Shown here: one piece after another, positions 20,304 to 26,392 of the stretch | How the letters are laid out: each line of letters starts with the position of its first letter | Position numbering within the stretch: the first letter of the stretch is position 1 | Source of the DNA: Candidatus Cloacimonadota bacterium | GTDB taxonomy: Bacteria > Cloacimonadota > Cloacimonadia > Cloacimonadales > Cloacimonadaceae | Direction of reading: 5' to 3' | DNA: 46,582 nt | NCBI GenBank assembly: GCA_028706475.1 | Contig: JAQWBI010000013.1 | Location: 1-46,582, forward strand | Notes under the pieces: generated by a model | Seen by the model: the letters and a program-made list of their open reading frames with translations, nothing else | The model's database searches: none | What the model was told of the DNA's origin: nothing | Position numbers and translations under genes: made by a program

Positions 20304-21584
20304 TTAATAATACCTCAGCAGTATGTATAAGGTACTCAGGATTATGGAGCTTGAAGTAAAGATAACTCCGATTTTGGTGAATTCTTTGAAGCTGATGTGA
20401 AAGCCGTTGCGATTGGCAATGCCCGCCGCCACGATGTTCGCTGAAGCACCGATGAGTGTACCGTTTCCCCCCAGGCAAGTGCCCAGTGCCAAAGACCACC
20501 AGATGGGATGCATCACTTCGGGTTTTCCTATCAGGATGCCCAAACGTTCCAGCACCGGGATCATGGCTGCCACAAACGGTACGTTGTCGATAAACGCACT
20601 GAAGACCCCGGAGATCCACAGAATCAGCATCGATGTGGAGCGGGGTTCTCCTTTGCTGATCATCATCACTCCTTCCGCTATCATATTGATAAAGCCAGTC
20701 TCCACCAAAGATTCCACGATCATAAACAGTCCCATAAAGAAGAAGATGGTTACCCAATCCACATCGTCGGAAAGGATGTGTTCTACCTTCTTGCGGTCAG
20801 AAATCACCAGTAAAAAGAGTCCTGCGCTCATGGCAATGGTGGCGGTCTCAATATGTAATACTCCTTGCAGGGCAAAAGCTGTAAGCATCAGGACAAGCAC
20901 GATCAGGCTAATCCGCAGCAGGGGCTTACTCTTAATCAGGTTCTTTTCGTTGTAACTCAATAGTTTGGCGCGGTCTTCATTGGTAACTTGCATGCCTTTG
21001 CGATACAGTAGCCAGATCAATCCCACGGAGAATATTGTGATTATAAGAACCGGTGGTGTGAGATTGAGCAGAAAATCCATGAAGTTGTAGTCCGTAGCAG
21101 AGCCGATCAGGATGTTGGGCGGGTCTCCGATCATTGTGGCAGCGCCACCGGCATTTGACCCAATCACCATGGTAATAATGAAGGGAATGGGGCTTATTTT
21201 CAGTTCACTGGCGATCAAAAGCACGATTGGTACCAGGATCATGATGGTGGTTACGCTACCCATGAAAGCAGAGATGAAGGTAGTAAGCAGATACATCAGA
21301 ATCAGGATGGACAGTGGTCTGCCTTTTGCTATCTTGGCGATGCGGATGGCCATATACATAAAGAGTCCCGTCTGGCGCATCACAGATATCACCAGCATCA
21401 TCCCAATCAGGAAGAAGATAACGTTCCAGTCGATGGCGGCAAAGGCAATCTCCTGATGCACGATACCAGTAAGTATTATTGCAAAACCGCCCATCAGTGC
21501 GGCCAGCATCTTGTTGATCCATTCTGTGATAATCAAGACGTATGTGATGGCGAAAATGGCTAGAGCGATAAGCATTAGAGTCAT
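20304..21584 (-). CDS. ArsB/NhaD-type ion transporter
   Basis: A 426-residue polytopic transporter with about 11 membrane helices in the ion transporter superfamily that includes ArsB, NhaD and SLC13-type carriers. Family-like sequences are AIDWNVIFFLIGMM, NAGGAATMIGDPPNILIGSA and, in the second half, DNVPFVAAMIPV with LGGNGTLIGASANIVAAG. The two GDPPN/GASAN loops mark the paired re-entrant substrate regions. Arsenite, Na+/H+ exchange and organic anion transport cannot be distinguished. It is the last gene of a minus-strand operon, starting 6 bases after the EIIA-CBS gene, without a clear Shine-Dalgarno sequence of its own, so translational coupling is likely. Confidence 0.9.
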   Translation of the reverse strand: MTLMLIALAIFAITYVLIITEWINKMLAALMGGFAIILTGIVHQEIAFAAIDWNVIFFLIGMMLVISVMRQTGLFMYMAIRIAKIAKGRPLSILILMYLLTTFISAFMGSVTTIMILVPIVLLIASELKISPIPFIITMVIGSNAGGAATMIGDPPNILIGSATDYNFMDFLLNLTPPVLIITIFSVGLIWLLYRKGMQVTNEDRAKLLSYNEKNLIKSKPLLRISLIVLVLMLTAFALQGVLHIETATIAMSAGLFLLVISDRKKVEHILSDDVDWVTIFFFMGLFMIVESLVETGFINMIAEGVMMISKGEPRSTSMLILWISGVFSAFIDNVPFVAAMIPVLERLGILIGKPEVMHPIWWSLALGTCLGGNGTLIGASANIVAAGIANRNGFHISFKEFTKIGVIFTSSSIILSTLYILLRYY

Positions 21585-21590
21585 TTTGTT

Positions 21591-22493
21591 TTAGGCCTTG
21601 ATTACTTTTCTAAAGATGTCCATGGCAGTTACCACCCCCTGCAGCTTGCCCTCTTCATCTACAACAGAATAGAAGCGTTTTTTATTGTGAATCATCTCAA
21701 ATACTGCTTCGGGGATGGAGGTATCTGGGCTGAGATGCCGACCATCCGGTATCATCACATCTTTAACGCATAGGATGTCTTCCTGTTCAAACAACTTTTC
21801 CAGGGGCTCGTATGACCTCAGGAAGCTTACATCGTCCAGCATCATCAGATAATTCGGTACACCTACCTTAAGGAGGTTCAATATGCTGACTTCCCCAATA
21901 TAGATATTGTTTTCATCTACTACGGGAACGTAGGATAGGTTACGGCTGCACAGAGCGTCGCTCAATTCGCTCAATAGAGCTTTTGGGTGTACTGTTACCA
22001 TATCTGTAACCATGATATCGGATAGTGTAACCTCTTTTTTCAAAACAATCTCGGGGTCTTTGAAGAAATGAAGCACCTGTGCAGCATCATGAGCATTCAT
22101 CAGGTTATCCATTTTCTGAGTGTCTTTGGAGATATTCAAGAGGTTTGCCACGATGTTCAGATACAGGTTAGACGAGCTTTTATCCGAGATGATGAGGCAG
22201 ACCCAATGTACCTTTGTTTCCTCATAAATTAGCGGATTCTGCAGAAAAGCCATGCCAATCACGGTGTCATGAAAACCATCCATCCGGATGTGGGGGATGG
22301 CGATTCCTGTGGGATAAGCAGTGCTACTCTGTTCGTCCCGCTTCATAATCAGCTCGATTAATTTATCACCGCAGACAGGTAGTTGGTTGTACTTGGATAT
22401 ACGTTCTACCAGCATGCGATATATCTGTTCTCTGGAAAGAATCTGACTCTCATGCAGAATTGTCCTTGTATCCAAGAAATTTGAGAGATACAT
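21591..22493 (-). CDS. PTS EIIA-type domain fused to paired CBS domains
   Basis: A 300-residue cytoplasmic regulator. Residues 1-150 match the EIIA-Ntr/Fru fold, with the phospho-acceptor His68 in TGIAIPHIR. Residues 160-300 hold two CBS modules (DIMVTDMVTVHPKALLSEL and DVMIPDGRHLSPDTSIPEAV), which commonly bind adenine nucleotides. No EIIB or EIIC partner is encoded nearby, so it probably works as a sensor rather than in sugar uptake. Placed between the PorX homologue (8 bases upstream) and the ArsB/NhaD-type transporter (6 bases downstream), it may gate that transporter. GGAGG precedes the ATG and overlaps the PorX stop codon. Confidence 0.88.
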   Translation of the reverse strand: MYLSNFLDTRTILHESQILSREQIYRMLVERISKYNQLPVCGDKLIELIMKRDEQSSTAYPTGIAIPHIRMDGFHDTVIGMAFLQNPLIYEETKVHWVCLIISDKSSSNLYLNIVANLLNISKDTQKMDNLMNAHDAAQVLHFFKDPEIVLKKEVTLSDIMVTDMVTVHPKALLSELSDALCSRNLSYVPVVDENNIYIGEVSILNLLKVGVPNYLMMLDDVSFLRSYEPLEKLFEQEDILCVKDVMIPDGRHLSPDTSIPEAVFEMIHNKKRFYSVVDEEGKLQGVVTAMDIFRKVIKA

Positions 22494-22501
22494 ATTCCCT
22501 C

Positions 22502-24064
22502 CTATCTTTTCTTTTTACTGCGGCAGGTCACGATGGGCAGGATCATCTCTTCCATAGAGACACCACCATGCTGGAAAGTACCGTTGTATTGGCGTTGATA
22601 CTGGTGATAGCTATTGGGATACACGAAATAGTAATCATCCTTGGCAAAGATAAAGTTGTCCACAATGCTCTTTGAAGGCAAGCCATAATCGGCAGGTTTC
22701 TTCACAAAGAGAGCGTGCCGATCATTAGCAGTGAGGTTCTTACCTTCTTTGTAACGAACGGTTACTGAAGTATCTTTATCGCCTATCACCTGGGTGGCGC
22801 GATTCACTTTGATGGAACCGTGATCTGTGGAGATGATTACGATGGCGTCTTGTTTGGCGATCAGTTTCAAGGCTTCATATAGCGATGAATGCAGGAACCA
22901 GTGTTTGGTGAAAGCTCTGAGGCCTTCTTCATGAGGTATGGCTTCCTGCAGGATTTGGTCGCGGGAACGGTGATGCGCCAAGAGATCCAGGAAGTTGTAA
23001 ACCAGAACTATCAGGTTCTCTTTGCTCCAGGTTTCAATCTTGCGCAACACGAAATTACCTTCATCCATGTTGAATATCTTCACATATTTGGAGCTGGGAT
23101 CCATCTGATAACCCAGTTCTGTGATATGCTCGTTCAGCAGTTGATGTTCATTGCGATTGCGGCTGTTGTCCATCTCCGACGAGTTTACCCAGTATTCTGG
23201 GAAGCGCTTGGCAATATCGATGGGAAGGAGTCCGCTGAAGATGGAGTTTCGGGAGTATGGCGTAGCAGTGGGCAAGATTGAGAAATACAGATCCAGCTCT
23301 TCCTCAAAAAGCTCCTGAACATAAGGCTGAATCGCCATATACTGATCCAGGCGCATGCAGTCGATGATTATAAAGTAGATCGGCACATTGGACTCAAAGT
23401 GAGGTGCCACATACTGCGATATAAGGTCAAAACTAAGGTTGGGACGCTCATCAGTCCTTAGCCAGTCTTTGTAGTTGCGTTCTACATAACTGGTGAATTC
23501 AGAATTGCAATTACGCTTTTCCAGAAAGTGGGTCTGACGCAGTCCATCATCGTTCACCTCATCAATACGCAATTCCCACTGTGCCATCTCGCGATATATC
23601 TCGCCCCATTCATTCCAATCGGGATTGGAGAACAGACGCTGATTCAGCTTTGCCATATATTGCGAGTATTGCTGACCTATCTCATTTGCCCTTATTTCAT
23701 CGGCTTGGAATATCTTCTTTATTGCCATGATGATCTGAGAGGGATTGATGGGCTTGATCAGATAATCCGAGATCTGCGAGGCGATGGCTTTGTTCATCAA
23801 ACCCTCTTCCTCGCTCTTGGTTACCATCACGATGGGCAGAGCATTGTTGATGCGTTTTATCTCCTGCAGCGTAGCCAGACCGTCCAGACCGGGCATCATC
23901 TCATCCAATATCACGAGGTCATATTTGTTTTCCACTACTTGCTCGATGGCGTCTGCCCCGTTGTTGCAGGTATCTACTGTATAATTCCGCTCTTCCAAAA
24001 AGAGCACGAATGGTTTCAAAAGATCGATCTCATCATCGACCCAGAGTATTTTCATCAATTTCAT
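22502..24064 (-). CDS. PorX-type response regulator with PglZ domain
   Basis: A 520-residue two-domain protein. Residues 1-120 are a receiver domain with acidic pocket D10-D11, phospho-acceptor Asp54 in LVILDEMMPG and Lys104 in YLIKPINP. The rest is an alkaline-phosphatase-fold PglZ domain: IIIDCMRLDQ near 235, PTATPYSRNS with candidate nucleophile Thr266 or Thr268, STDHGS, and a C-terminal FQHGGVSMEEM. This architecture is that of PorX, the T9SS regulator of Porphyromonas and Flavobacterium, whose PglZ part is a phosphodiesterase. No cognate PorY kinase is adjacent. AAGGAG sits 7 bases before ATG 24064; an in-frame ATG at 24055 is possible. The upstream gene ends 5 bases earlier. Confidence 0.9.
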   Translation of the reverse strand: MKLMKILWVDDEIDLLKPFVLFLEERNYTVDTCNNGADAIEQVVENKYDLVILDEMMPGLDGLATLQEIKRINNALPIVMVTKSEEEGLMNKAIASQISDYLIKPINPSQIIMAIKKIFQADEIRANEIGQQYSQYMAKLNQRLFSNPDWNEWGEIYREMAQWELRIDEVNDDGLRQTHFLEKRNCNSEFTSYVERNYKDWLRTDERPNLSFDLISQYVAPHFESNVPIYFIIIDCMRLDQYMAIQPYVQELFEEELDLYFSILPTATPYSRNSIFSGLLPIDIAKRFPEYWVNSSEMDNSRNRNEHQLLNEHITELGYQMDPSSKYVKIFNMDEGNFVLRKIETWSKENLIVLVYNFLDLLAHHRSRDQILQEAIPHEEGLRAFTKHWFLHSSLYEALKLIAKQDAIVIISTDHGSIKVNRATQVIGDKDTSVTVRYKEGKNLTANDRHALFVKKPADYGLPSKSIVDNFIFAKDDYYFVYPNSYHQYQRQYNGTFQHGGVSMEEMILPIVTCRSKKKR

Positions 24065-24069
24065 GCAGC

Positions 24070-24684
24070 TTACTCCTTGTTCGTTTGGATTTCCTGTTCA
24101 AAAGCGCGTTGGCGCTCTTTCACCAATTTCTTTACGGCTTCCAGGTCACTCTCCTGAAAGTAAAGAGCGAGCTTGAAATTCAGCTCACTTTTAGAGCAAT
24201 TGAACCATGTTGTCATCTTCTCCAGATATTGATCTATAAACACTTTTTTGAGGTCCGAGTCGTCCTCTTTATCTTTCTTCTTCAGCTCTTTAATCTCGCT
24301 GCGAAGCTCATTTGTAGGTGTCTCTACAGCCTTCTGCATCCAGAGTTCCCGCTCGTCCCAATTAGCTTTTTGTACCATTGGTTTGATCAGTTGCAAGCGC
24401 TCAAAACCTATCTCTTTCACGCTTACCTCGTCCACATCCATCTCTTCCACATAGAGGTCGAAGGTTGAGGCCAATTTTCCCGCCAGAGACCCGGAAAGCT
24501 GATATTCCGCTTCCACAAAGTCCTTGAAGCTGTCATAACCCTTGAAGCGATATAGTTTGCTGCGCTTTATCTCACTCAATAGCTCGCCCAGAGCTACAAA
24601 GTTGTCTTCCAATTTCTCTTTAAGATTCGCGATTGCTGTAAATTTCTCGTCGGGACTCATATTTTCTGTTCTTTCGTTTGCCAT
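24070..24684 (-). CDS. Helical charged protein upstream of the PorX homologue
   Basis: Not recognised with confidence. The 204-residue product is alpha-helical and highly charged, with no signal peptide or membrane helix. Residues 17-100 (KFTAIANLKEKLEDNFVALG, then a YDSFKDFVEAEYQLSGSLAG segment) have the feel of a helix-turn-helix or plasmid ParB-like region, and a Lys/Glu-rich linker follows near 130. It could be a DNA-binding adaptor or a partner of PorX. The ATG at 24684 follows GAGGA, 16 bases after the panB stop. Its stop lies 5 bases before the PorX start, with the PorX ribosome site inside its tail, so the two are co-translated. Confidence 0.7.
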   Translation of the reverse strand: MANERTENMSPDEKFTAIANLKEKLEDNFVALGELLSEIKRSKLYRFKGYDSFKDFVEAEYQLSGSLAGKLASTFDLYVEEMDVDEVSVKEIGFERLQLIKPMVQKANWDERELWMQKAVETPTNELRSEIKELKKKDKEDDSDLKKVFIDQYLEKMTTWFNCSKSELNFKLALYFQESDLEAVKKLVKERQRAFEQEIQTNKE

Positions 24685-24700: not shown

Positions 24701-25546
24701 TTAATCTATGGGATAGTAGCTGTGTTCGCGGGCGGGGAATAGCCCTTCCCGCACTTCCCGGCTGTAGTCCATAATGGCTTCGGGAATGCTTTTATTCAAG
24801 TTTGCATATTGTCTTACAAATTTCGCCTGCATTGTGCTGTAACCCAGCATGTCGTGATAGACCAAGACCTGGCCGTCACAATATCTTCCTGCTCCAATGC
24901 CGATGGTGGGGATATGCAGTGATTCGCTGATCTCTTTGCCCAAAAGCTCGGGGATTCCCTCCAGTACCAGCATAAAGGCTCCTGCTTCTTCCACGGCTTT
25001 AGCTTGCCTGAAGATCTCTTCGTGAGCCCTTTCGCTCTTGCCCTGAACCTTGAATCCACCAAATTTCAGCACGGATTGGGGAGTGAGTCCGATGTGGGCA
25101 CATACGGGGATTTCCATGTCCACGATTTCCCTGATGGCATTCAGACGCGATGTATATCCGCCTTCCAGCTTCACTGCATTGGCTTCACCGTCACGCACCA
25201 AACGGGATGCGTTTAACCGGGTCTCACGGGAATCCAGATGATAGCTCATGTATGGCATATCCACGATGATATATTTATCCGGCGCTCCTCTGCGAACCGC
25301 CGCACTATGCGAGATCATGTCCTCCATCGTCACTTTCAGAGTGCTGTCATAACCCAATACCACCATCCCCAGGGAATCGCCTACCAGGATCACGTCGATA
25401 TCGGTAGCTGCAACTACACGGCCTTCGGCAAAATTGTAGGCAGTGATCATCGTGATCTTCTGATGCTTCTGTTTCATAAGAGCAAAGCTTTGTGCGCTAT
25501 TAGTCTTATTCGCCGGTGCTGTCATCGGTATTACCTTCTCTTTCAT
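24701..25546 (-). CDS. panB: 3-methyl-2-oxobutanoate hydroxymethyltransferase
   Basis: First enzyme of pantothenate synthesis: transfers hydroxymethyl from 5,10-methylene-tetrahydrofolate to ketoisovalerate. The 281 residues show KITMITAYNF, VILVGDSLGMVVLG, the VKLEGGY sequence, and VCAHIGLTPQSV, with the IGIGAGRYCDGQVLVYHDMLG block near the C-terminus. The metal-binding Asp of GDS and the catalytic Glu are present. Start 25546 is chosen for GAGGTGG about 6 bases upstream. The open frame continues to 25603, and ATG 25525 is also possible. The start overlaps the tail of the MORN-type gene by 41 bases. Other pan genes are not in the window. Confidence 0.95.
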   Translation of the reverse strand: MKEKVIPMTAPANKTNSAQSFALMKQKHQKITMITAYNFAEGRVVAATDIDVILVGDSLGMVVLGYDSTLKVTMEDMISHSAAVRRGAPDKYIIVDMPYMSYHLDSRETRLNASRLVRDGEANAVKLEGGYTSRLNAIREIVDMEIPVCAHIGLTPQSVLKFGGFKVQGKSERAHEEIFRQAKAVEEAGAFMLVLEGIPELLGKEISESLHIPTIGIGAGRYCDGQVLVYHDMLGYSTMQAKFVRQYANLNKSIPEAIMDYSREVREGLFPAREHSYYPID

Positions 25547-25994
25547 ATATTTCCACCTCTTCCTGCCGGAGATTATCTCTGCTCTCCAGGTTGTCTGAGG
25601 CATATGTTCCTCTGTTTATAAACATGTCATAAATCACTTTGCCGTTTAGATACCAACCTACAAAACGGCCATGTAATACTCCATTGCGATAGTTCGCACT
25701 CATTTGCGGGCTACCGTCCGGATACCACAACAGGTTCAATCCGTTCTGCAAGCCGGTTTTGTATTCCACGGCCCTTTGCAGACTGCCTTCGGGATACAGT
25801 TCATAAGTCCAGCCTGAAAAGGGTACATCATTCTGGTACAAGAGATTGTCCTGGGTATGCAATTCCGAAAGCAAAACTGCATCCTCAGGCAAATCCCAAT
25901 TCTTTACCATAAGATAATCCTCTGTCTGTACTTCAGCAGAGATGTTGACTATCAGGATGGTAAAGAAAAGAATAAAAATCAATCGCGAATACAT
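25506..25994 (-). CDS. Secreted MORN-type repeat protein
   Basis: A 162-residue exported protein. The start is set at ATG 25994 because a signal peptide (MYSRLIFILFFTILIVNISA) begins there; an upstream ATG at 26123 would put 43 unlikely basic residues before it. The mature part contains two to three MORN_2-like repeats (PFSGWTYELYPEGSLQRAVE, the NGLNLLWYPDGSPQMSANY unit, and HGRFVGWYLNGK), as in YwqK-type proteins. Function is unknown, probably periplasmic or surface. It is the first gene of the minus-strand operon reaching to 20304, and its tail overlaps panB. The ribosome site is weak. Confidence 0.65.
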   Translation of the reverse strand: MYSRLIFILFFTILIVNISAEVQTEDYLMVKNWDLPEDAVLLSELHTQDNLLYQNDVPFSGWTYELYPEGSLQRAVEYKTGLQNGLNLLWYPDGSPQMSANYRNGVLHGRFVGWYLNGKVIYDMFINRGTYASDNLESRDNLRQEEVEIYEREGNTDDSTGE

Positions 25995-26392
25995 GGTTCG
26001 CGTGCCTGCAAGCGACCTGGCATGAGATGTCACTTCTATAAATATGCTCTTATAAGGACACAATTTTGCCTCCAAAGGCTTAGTCAACCTTTTTCTTTGG
26101 GTGATGTGCTGTTTTCTATACAATATAAGCGTTTTACACTGTTTGTAAAGAGTTATCTATACCGTATCGCATCATTCCGATGCACGCTTCCGGAGGAACG
26201 GAAAGCTACGCTAGTCCACGTGCCTCGGCATGTCTTTTTCGCTGAATGTTCCGCTTCGCTTCACTGTTGAAGCGCCCCACGAAAACTTCGCATTTGCGCG
26301 AGGACCCCGGAAGCCCCACTAAACATTCGTGGTTGATCGGTGCTGCAGTTGAATACTCGCTTTACTCTCTGCTGATGGCGAGACGGCGATCA

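Follow-up and report, generated by a model that had tools for sequence, protein, structure and literature searches.

Does the PglZ-domain gene at the centre of this locus encode a genuine PorX and, if so, what would such a regulator act upon in a bacterium from outside the Bacteroidota? The gene lies in a 46,582-nucleotide stretch of a Candidatus Cloacimonadota genome (hereafter the window; assembly of 2.06 Mb, 96.84% complete), and the original prediction placed it either in a control circuit resembling the type IX secretion system (T9SS) or in a distinct nucleotide-signalling system. T9SSs may be present in several phyla beyond Bacteroidota, Cloacimonadota being one of them (PMC11285876), and sorting-domain attachment has been inferred in one Cloacimonadota genus (PMC8542988). 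The mode of action of PorX is itself disputed, as the introduction of PMC10951265 summarises for the P. gingivalis protein: binding to the motor through PorL, binding to SigP, and a contested binding to DNA. The features of the locus are collected in Table 1.

Table 1. Features of the porX locus, in window coordinates
Feature	Coordinates	Strand	Description and evidence
MORN_2-type repeat gene	25506..26123	-	PF07661 25.1 bits, under the 29.6 cut-off; start uncertain
panB, ketopantoate hydroxymethyltransferase	24701..25477	-	TIGR00222 318.9 bits, cut-off 207.55
hel204	24070..24684	-	204 aa, all-helical, directly upstream of porX; AlphaFold2, VIA-align, borfam_49
hel204, ParB-HTH-like part	24265..24615	-	Residues 24-140, structural alignment range
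porX	22502..24064	-	520 aa; CheY-like receiver, helical bundle and PglZ phosphodiesterase; NF052313, PDB 7pv7, kept residues
PorX receiver domain	23720..24049	-	Residues 6-115, PF00072 5.8e-26; predicted phospho-acceptor D54
PorX PglZ domain match	22799..23377	-	Residues 230-422, PF08665 4e-18; H499 further downstream
EIIA (PTS_EIIA_2) and two CBS domains	21591..22493	-	PF00359 2.8e-22, PF00571 3.1e-20
CitMHS/ArsB-type ion transporter	20304..21584	-	PF03600 5.2e-87; last gene of the run

The window encodes a full-length PorX

The assignment of the window gene to PorX is secure. Its product scores 689.9 bits (2.1e-207) against the NCBIfam equivalog NF052313 (T9SS_RR_PorX), for which the cut-off is 300, and the match runs from position 2 to 513 of a 513-position profile, as expected of a full-length PorX. 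The best match in the PDB is P. gingivalis PorX itself (7pv7, 5.7e-135, residues 4-516), and the chains of 8ted and 8p6f match at about 1e-131. In length, in its three-part architecture and in its receiver and zinc residues the window protein resembles the PorX of P. gingivalis and F. johnsoniae, and it is 42-45% identical to three Bacteroidota PorX sequences. When the residues listed in PMC10951265 were mapped onto it via the PDB alignments, all of them were found: D11, E12, D54, T82, Y101 and K104 in the receiver, D235, T268, D414 and H415 at Zn1, and D360, H364 and H499 at Zn2, the two zinc sites being numbered D237, T271, D414, H415 and D360, H364, H499 in F. johnsoniae (PMC10951265). The D54 and the phosphatase-fold motifs from which a PorX homologue had been proposed are thereby corroborated.

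The same residues were followed through an alignment of 71 rows, consisting of the window protein and 70 sequences from genome-contig loci (L001, a minus-strand copy of the own locus, was dropped); the closest named locus, L006, is from a Candidatus Cloacimonadota and shows 94% PorX identity. The seven zinc residues are invariant in all rows having the position (69 or 70 rows), and 67 of 69 rows carry D at position 54. The two exceptions, L061 and L075, are related Cloacimonadota PorX proteins that naturally carry D54E together with all the zinc residues; D54E is the phosphomimetic substitution used in F. johnsoniae PorX (PMC10951265).

Assignment to BREX or to another PglZ-based defence system was considered and rejected. 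The BREX-3 PglZ model NF033449 shares the PglZ fold with PorX, but it matches the window protein with 83.3 bits over 98-513, far under its cut-off of 250, whereas NF052313 is far exceeded; unlike BREX-3 PglZ, the window protein has a receiver in place of the N-terminal parts. No BREX gene appeared among the scanned neighbours of porX, and the PglZ domain of the window protein is the single one in its genome at the Pfam search threshold.

Gene order around porX

The porX gene belongs to a minus-strand run composed, in order, of the MORN-type gene, panB, hel204, porX, the EIIA-CBS gene and the CitMHS-type transporter gene. The MORN_2-type gene also occurs upstream of panB in many relatives. We place the probable panB start at 25477, since the longest open reading frame, from 25603, would overlap the upstream gene. 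From panB onward the genes are co-directional and separated by only 5 to 16 bases, and this spacing suggests that they are co-transcribed. The four neighbours (panB, a helical gene, EIIA-CBS and a transporter) agree with those given in the original prediction.

The conservation of these neighbours is uneven. The order panB-hel204-porX is kept in 19/19 relatives that have PorX or a fragment of it, distributed over eight genera, so that part of what had been called unexpected partners holds across the phylum. The other part does not, as the EIIA-CBS and transporter genes follow porX in all ten same-genus relatives with room for them at the locus and in none of the seven genomes of other genera with PorX. 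This bears on the idea that the pair constitutes the input of the circuit, namely a phosphotransferase- and ligand-sensing module that feeds PorX and places secretion under metabolic control. The tight co-directional spacing (8 bases between porX and EIIA-CBS, 6 between EIIA-CBS and the transporter) would fit such a role, as would the motif AIPH in the EIIA-CBS protein, which we take to be the surroundings of the usual EIIA histidine; a pair confined to one genus is nevertheless weak evidence for a PTS-linked circuit, which we regard as highly improbable and have demoted from the core of the finding. The lack of PorY or SigP beside porX, which had also been considered surprising, is less so given that porX and porY occupy separate loci in P. 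gingivalis as well (PMC10951265, introduction).

A T9SS translocon, sortase and cargo are encoded

Like the Bacteroidota proteins, the window PorX co-occurs with SprA, PorU, PorV and proteins bearing C-terminal sorting domains (CTD). SprA, the channel, was detected in 20/20 relatives of nine genera, the own genome included, where it lies on another contig (C12) and scores 490.6 bits in frame against a cut-off of 200. PorX exceeds its cut-off in 18 of these 20 genomes; one of the remaining two (G009) has a PorX fragment at a contig end, and no PorX was found in the other (G013, 90% complete, in 450 contigs). The PorV family is likewise represented in 20/20 genomes (209.8 bits, cut-off 90). PorU, the sortase, exceeds its cut-off of 420 in five of six Cloacimonadota, with 607.9 bits in the own genome, and reaches 386 in the sixth. 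Finally, the own genome contains 67 matches to the sorting domain TIGR04183, 64 of them over the cut-off and none on the contig of the window (C13). Both the PglZ catalytic residues and a set of T9SS core components are thus present, and the T9SS-like setting that had been proposed for PorX, to be sought through Sov and sorting-domain proteins among others, is supported to this extent.

A further PorU-like protein of about 1683 aa is encoded elsewhere in the own genome (G000:C3:38996-44322), adjoining a PorV-family gene, and long PorU-like frames of a similar kind occur in the other Cloacimonadota tested. These neighbouring genes are possibly a second sortase-shuttle pair.

No GldL, GldM or GldN is recognisable

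The channel, the PorV family, the sortase, the TIGR04183 cargo and PorX are common to Bacteroidota and Cloacimonadota, whereas GldL, GldM and GldN were undetected in the latter. At E 0.001, neither GldM nor GldL was found in any of the 20 relatives. Three Bacteroidota genomes reached through their PorX loci served as positive controls: GldM was detected in 3/3 controls and in none of six Cloacimonadota even at E 10, the ring protein GldN/PorN in 3/3 controls and in none of the six at E 1, and GldL in 3/3 controls and in none of five other genomes. The GldL_N model PF22827, of 62 positions, gave 96-97 bits in the controls and at best 14.8 bits in Cloacimonadota, against a cut-off of 24. The search for PorL, PorM and PorN that had been recommended for this locus therefore returned no credible profile match in Cloacimonadota. 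Since the same models match all three Bacteroidota genomes, GldL/PorL, the motor subunit bound by PorX in F. johnsoniae and P. gingivalis, with its cytoplasmic part as the customary target of phosphorylated PorX, is not recognisable here.

The highest PF22827 matches were considered as divergent GldL candidates and discarded. E. coli and B. subtilis also produce matches at such E-values (up to 1); the 14.8-bit match of the own genome lies in a frame opposite another open reading frame, that of G018 (11.9 bits) lies inside an open reading frame resembling, by eye, signal peptidase II, and neither forms part of a GldL-GldM pair.

The absence is one at the level of profiles, and a very divergent motor may be encoded. 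PorX could then act exactly as in Bacteroidota, with a PorL/PorM motor and a PorK/N ring that have diverged too far for the profiles, and with phosphorylated PorX docking on GldL. F. johnsoniae PorX contacts GldL via its receiver and loses the contact in the D54A variant (PMC10951265), and GldLM powers T9SS transport in that species (PMC10994853); the presence of SprA, PorU, PorV and CTD cargo and the retention of the PorX receiver residues in nearly all rows of the alignment are in line with such a mechanism. On the other hand, the SprA, PorU, PorV and PorX profiles work readily across the phylum boundary, the permissive searches for GldM, GldN and GldL_N gave nothing credible, and reading four stretches around sprA or porU revealed no adjacent GldL-like gene. 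Taken together, we consider a hidden motor of this kind a possibility to be kept in mind, though a minority one.

PorX was also encountered outside the phylum. One Poribacteria locus (L064) carries a PorX at 41% identity; in the single Poribacteria genome searched no GldL, GldM or GldN exceeded its cut-off and PorU-like matches were sub-threshold only. Two loci titled Armatimonadetes or Armatimonadota (L050 and L051) show 66-67% identity, with panB nearby in L050, and may represent mislabelled Cloacimonadota bins.

The product of hel204 is a candidate DNA-binding protein

The gene between panB and porX had been described only as encoding a helical protein. An AlphaFold2 model built with 31 relatives (mean pLDDT 86.5) shows helices throughout. 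Foldseek returned nothing significant for this model (E 2 or worse), and the 369 best Foldseek chains were re-aligned to it with VIA-align. The top four alignments were all to DNA-binding proteins of one kind, ParB-CDP (6sdk, Z 9.0), Noc (7ol9 and 6y93, Z 8.8 and 8.5) and KorB (1r71, Z 6.3), with rmsd values of 2.7-3.1 over 98-101 residues for ParB and Noc, Z values of a size that can arise by chance in helical models. Further down the list come VirB, another complex of ParB with DNA and a ParB of the PNOB8-like type, and all of these alignments fall within residues 24-143. Because the scores may be fortuitous in helical models, we rely on the agreement within the ParB family instead of on the Z values. 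The similarity concerns the helix-turn-helix (HTH) part of these proteins; the C-terminal helices differ and sequence identity is 5-15%. With 204 residues, helices only and a match beginning at residue 24, hel204 would have no room for the N-terminal CTPase (ParB/Srx) domain.

The Borrelia family 49 model of chromosome replication/partitioning proteins (borfam_49, NF033725) weakly matches 29 of 31 hel204 members (best 5.1e-8), and the window protein matches it over residues 28-98 with 25.2 bits, under the 60-bit cut-off. All 31 members also match PHROGs families 17202 and 15077, neither of which has a known function. Pfam assigned no family to the first member, gave scattered, chance-like matches in the others, and found no ParB domain in hel204; no PDB sequence matched at E 10, and no plasmid or phage record matched. 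A viral contig (L139:648-1250) encodes a 43% identical homologue adjoining a DUF3164 protein. On the predicted-fold match, hel204 is better named a probable DNA-binding protein of the ParB/Noc/KorB HTH type than a helical protein.

Besides adjoining porX in all the PorX-bearing relatives mentioned above, hel204 is found beside it in 52 of 70 loci of other genomes (53 of 71 with the own locus). The 18 loci without it comprise six of Bacteroidota, one of Poribacteria, the two with Armatimonadetes titles, two in which a contig end truncates the start of PorX (L062 and L073) and seven of Cloacimonadota (L048, L052, L053, L054, L055, L059 and L072). In five of these seven, which belong to deep Cloacimonadota (L048, L052, L053, L054 and L072), and also in L050, panB lies directly upstream of porX. 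The absence of hel204 from several deep loci indicates that it is not obligatory.

Linkage to pantothenate genes

A second association with pantothenate metabolism was observed at sprA. In contrast to the Bacteroidota arrangement, sprA directly follows coaX, encoding type III pantothenate kinase, in 20/20 genomes (L085 and L100-L118; G000-G019; NCBIfam models bear out the coaX assignment for three of the 20), and in the own genome the two open reading frames overlap by 4 bases. One relative (L100, G018:C126:1-16000) displays the run panD-panC-methyltransferase-like-porU-coaX-sprA. Together with panB-hel204-porX, this makes two distinct T9SS loci bordered by pantothenate genes, a pattern noticed post hoc. 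Nothing joining type IX secretion and pantothenate kinase appeared in the portions of the open-access literature covered by one library.

As panB is a housekeeping gene, its co-location with porX need not mean co-function. It could even be argued that PorX serves generally as an oligonucleotide phosphodiesterase under receiver control, and that panB and hel204 merely preserve an old, functionally unrelated gene order. Such an explanation draws on the nature of panB, which belongs to vitamin synthesis and is not known to be connected with secretion, on the partial loss of the order in deep lineages and on the genus-specific addition of EIIA-CBS and the transporter. The persistence of panB-hel204-porX across eight genera and the co-occurrence of PorX and SprA make it quite unlikely.

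A possible route from PorX to DNA

Our preferred reading is that of a bona fide PorX which regulates T9SS-type export and whose output runs through hel204 to DNA, instead of through GldL to the motor. The evidence leaves it evenly poised between right and wrong; it is favoured because GldL is unrecognisable in Cloacimonadota and a DNA-binding candidate lies adjacent to porX. A histidine kinase would phosphorylate the receiver on D54, and phosphorylated PorX would dimerise, gating the two-zinc PglZ phosphodiesterase, which may hydrolyse oligonucleotide signals. PorX would thereby control export through the SprA channel, the PorV shuttle and the PorU sortase, with dozens of sorting-domain proteins as putative cargoes. 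The likeliest output partner would be hel204, which might contact PorX and, by binding DNA, pass on its signal as SigP does in P. gingivalis. F. johnsoniae PorX is described as having no canonical DNA-binding motif of its own (PMC10951265). All these steps, from phosphorylation and enzyme activity to secretion control, the PorX-hel204 contact and DNA binding, are inferred. The distinct nucleotide-signalling system put forward at the outset is neither shown nor needed.

A broader version can be formulated, in which Cloacimonadota would possess a T9SS-type translocon and sortase lacking the GldLM rotary motor and the PorN ring. PorX would there be a transcription module and not a motor clutch, a phosphorylated oligonucleotide phosphodiesterase acting via a dedicated hel204 and tied to pantothenate/CoA synthesis by the two gene orders, panB-hel204-porX and coaX-sprA. 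As a whole, we regard this version as rather unlikely.

Significance

PorX itself is an already known kind of protein. What distinguishes the Cloacimonadota locus from its Bacteroidota counterparts is a genome devoid of recognisable GldL/PorL and a porX gene usually accompanied by panB and a ParB-HTH-like gene. Among the titles and the beginnings of abstracts in one open-access library, the combination of PorX with a ParB-HTH-like partner, an undetected motor and a pantothenate linkage was not found; nor did that library, to the extent of its open-access text, link PorX with ParB, a BREX paper using both words unconnected. With PorX and the translocon retained and no motor recognisable, the phylum separates the roles attributed to PorX. 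It raises the question of the power source of type IX export in Cloacimonadota, and the co-conserved DNA-binding candidate hel204 offers a direct test of how PorX acts.
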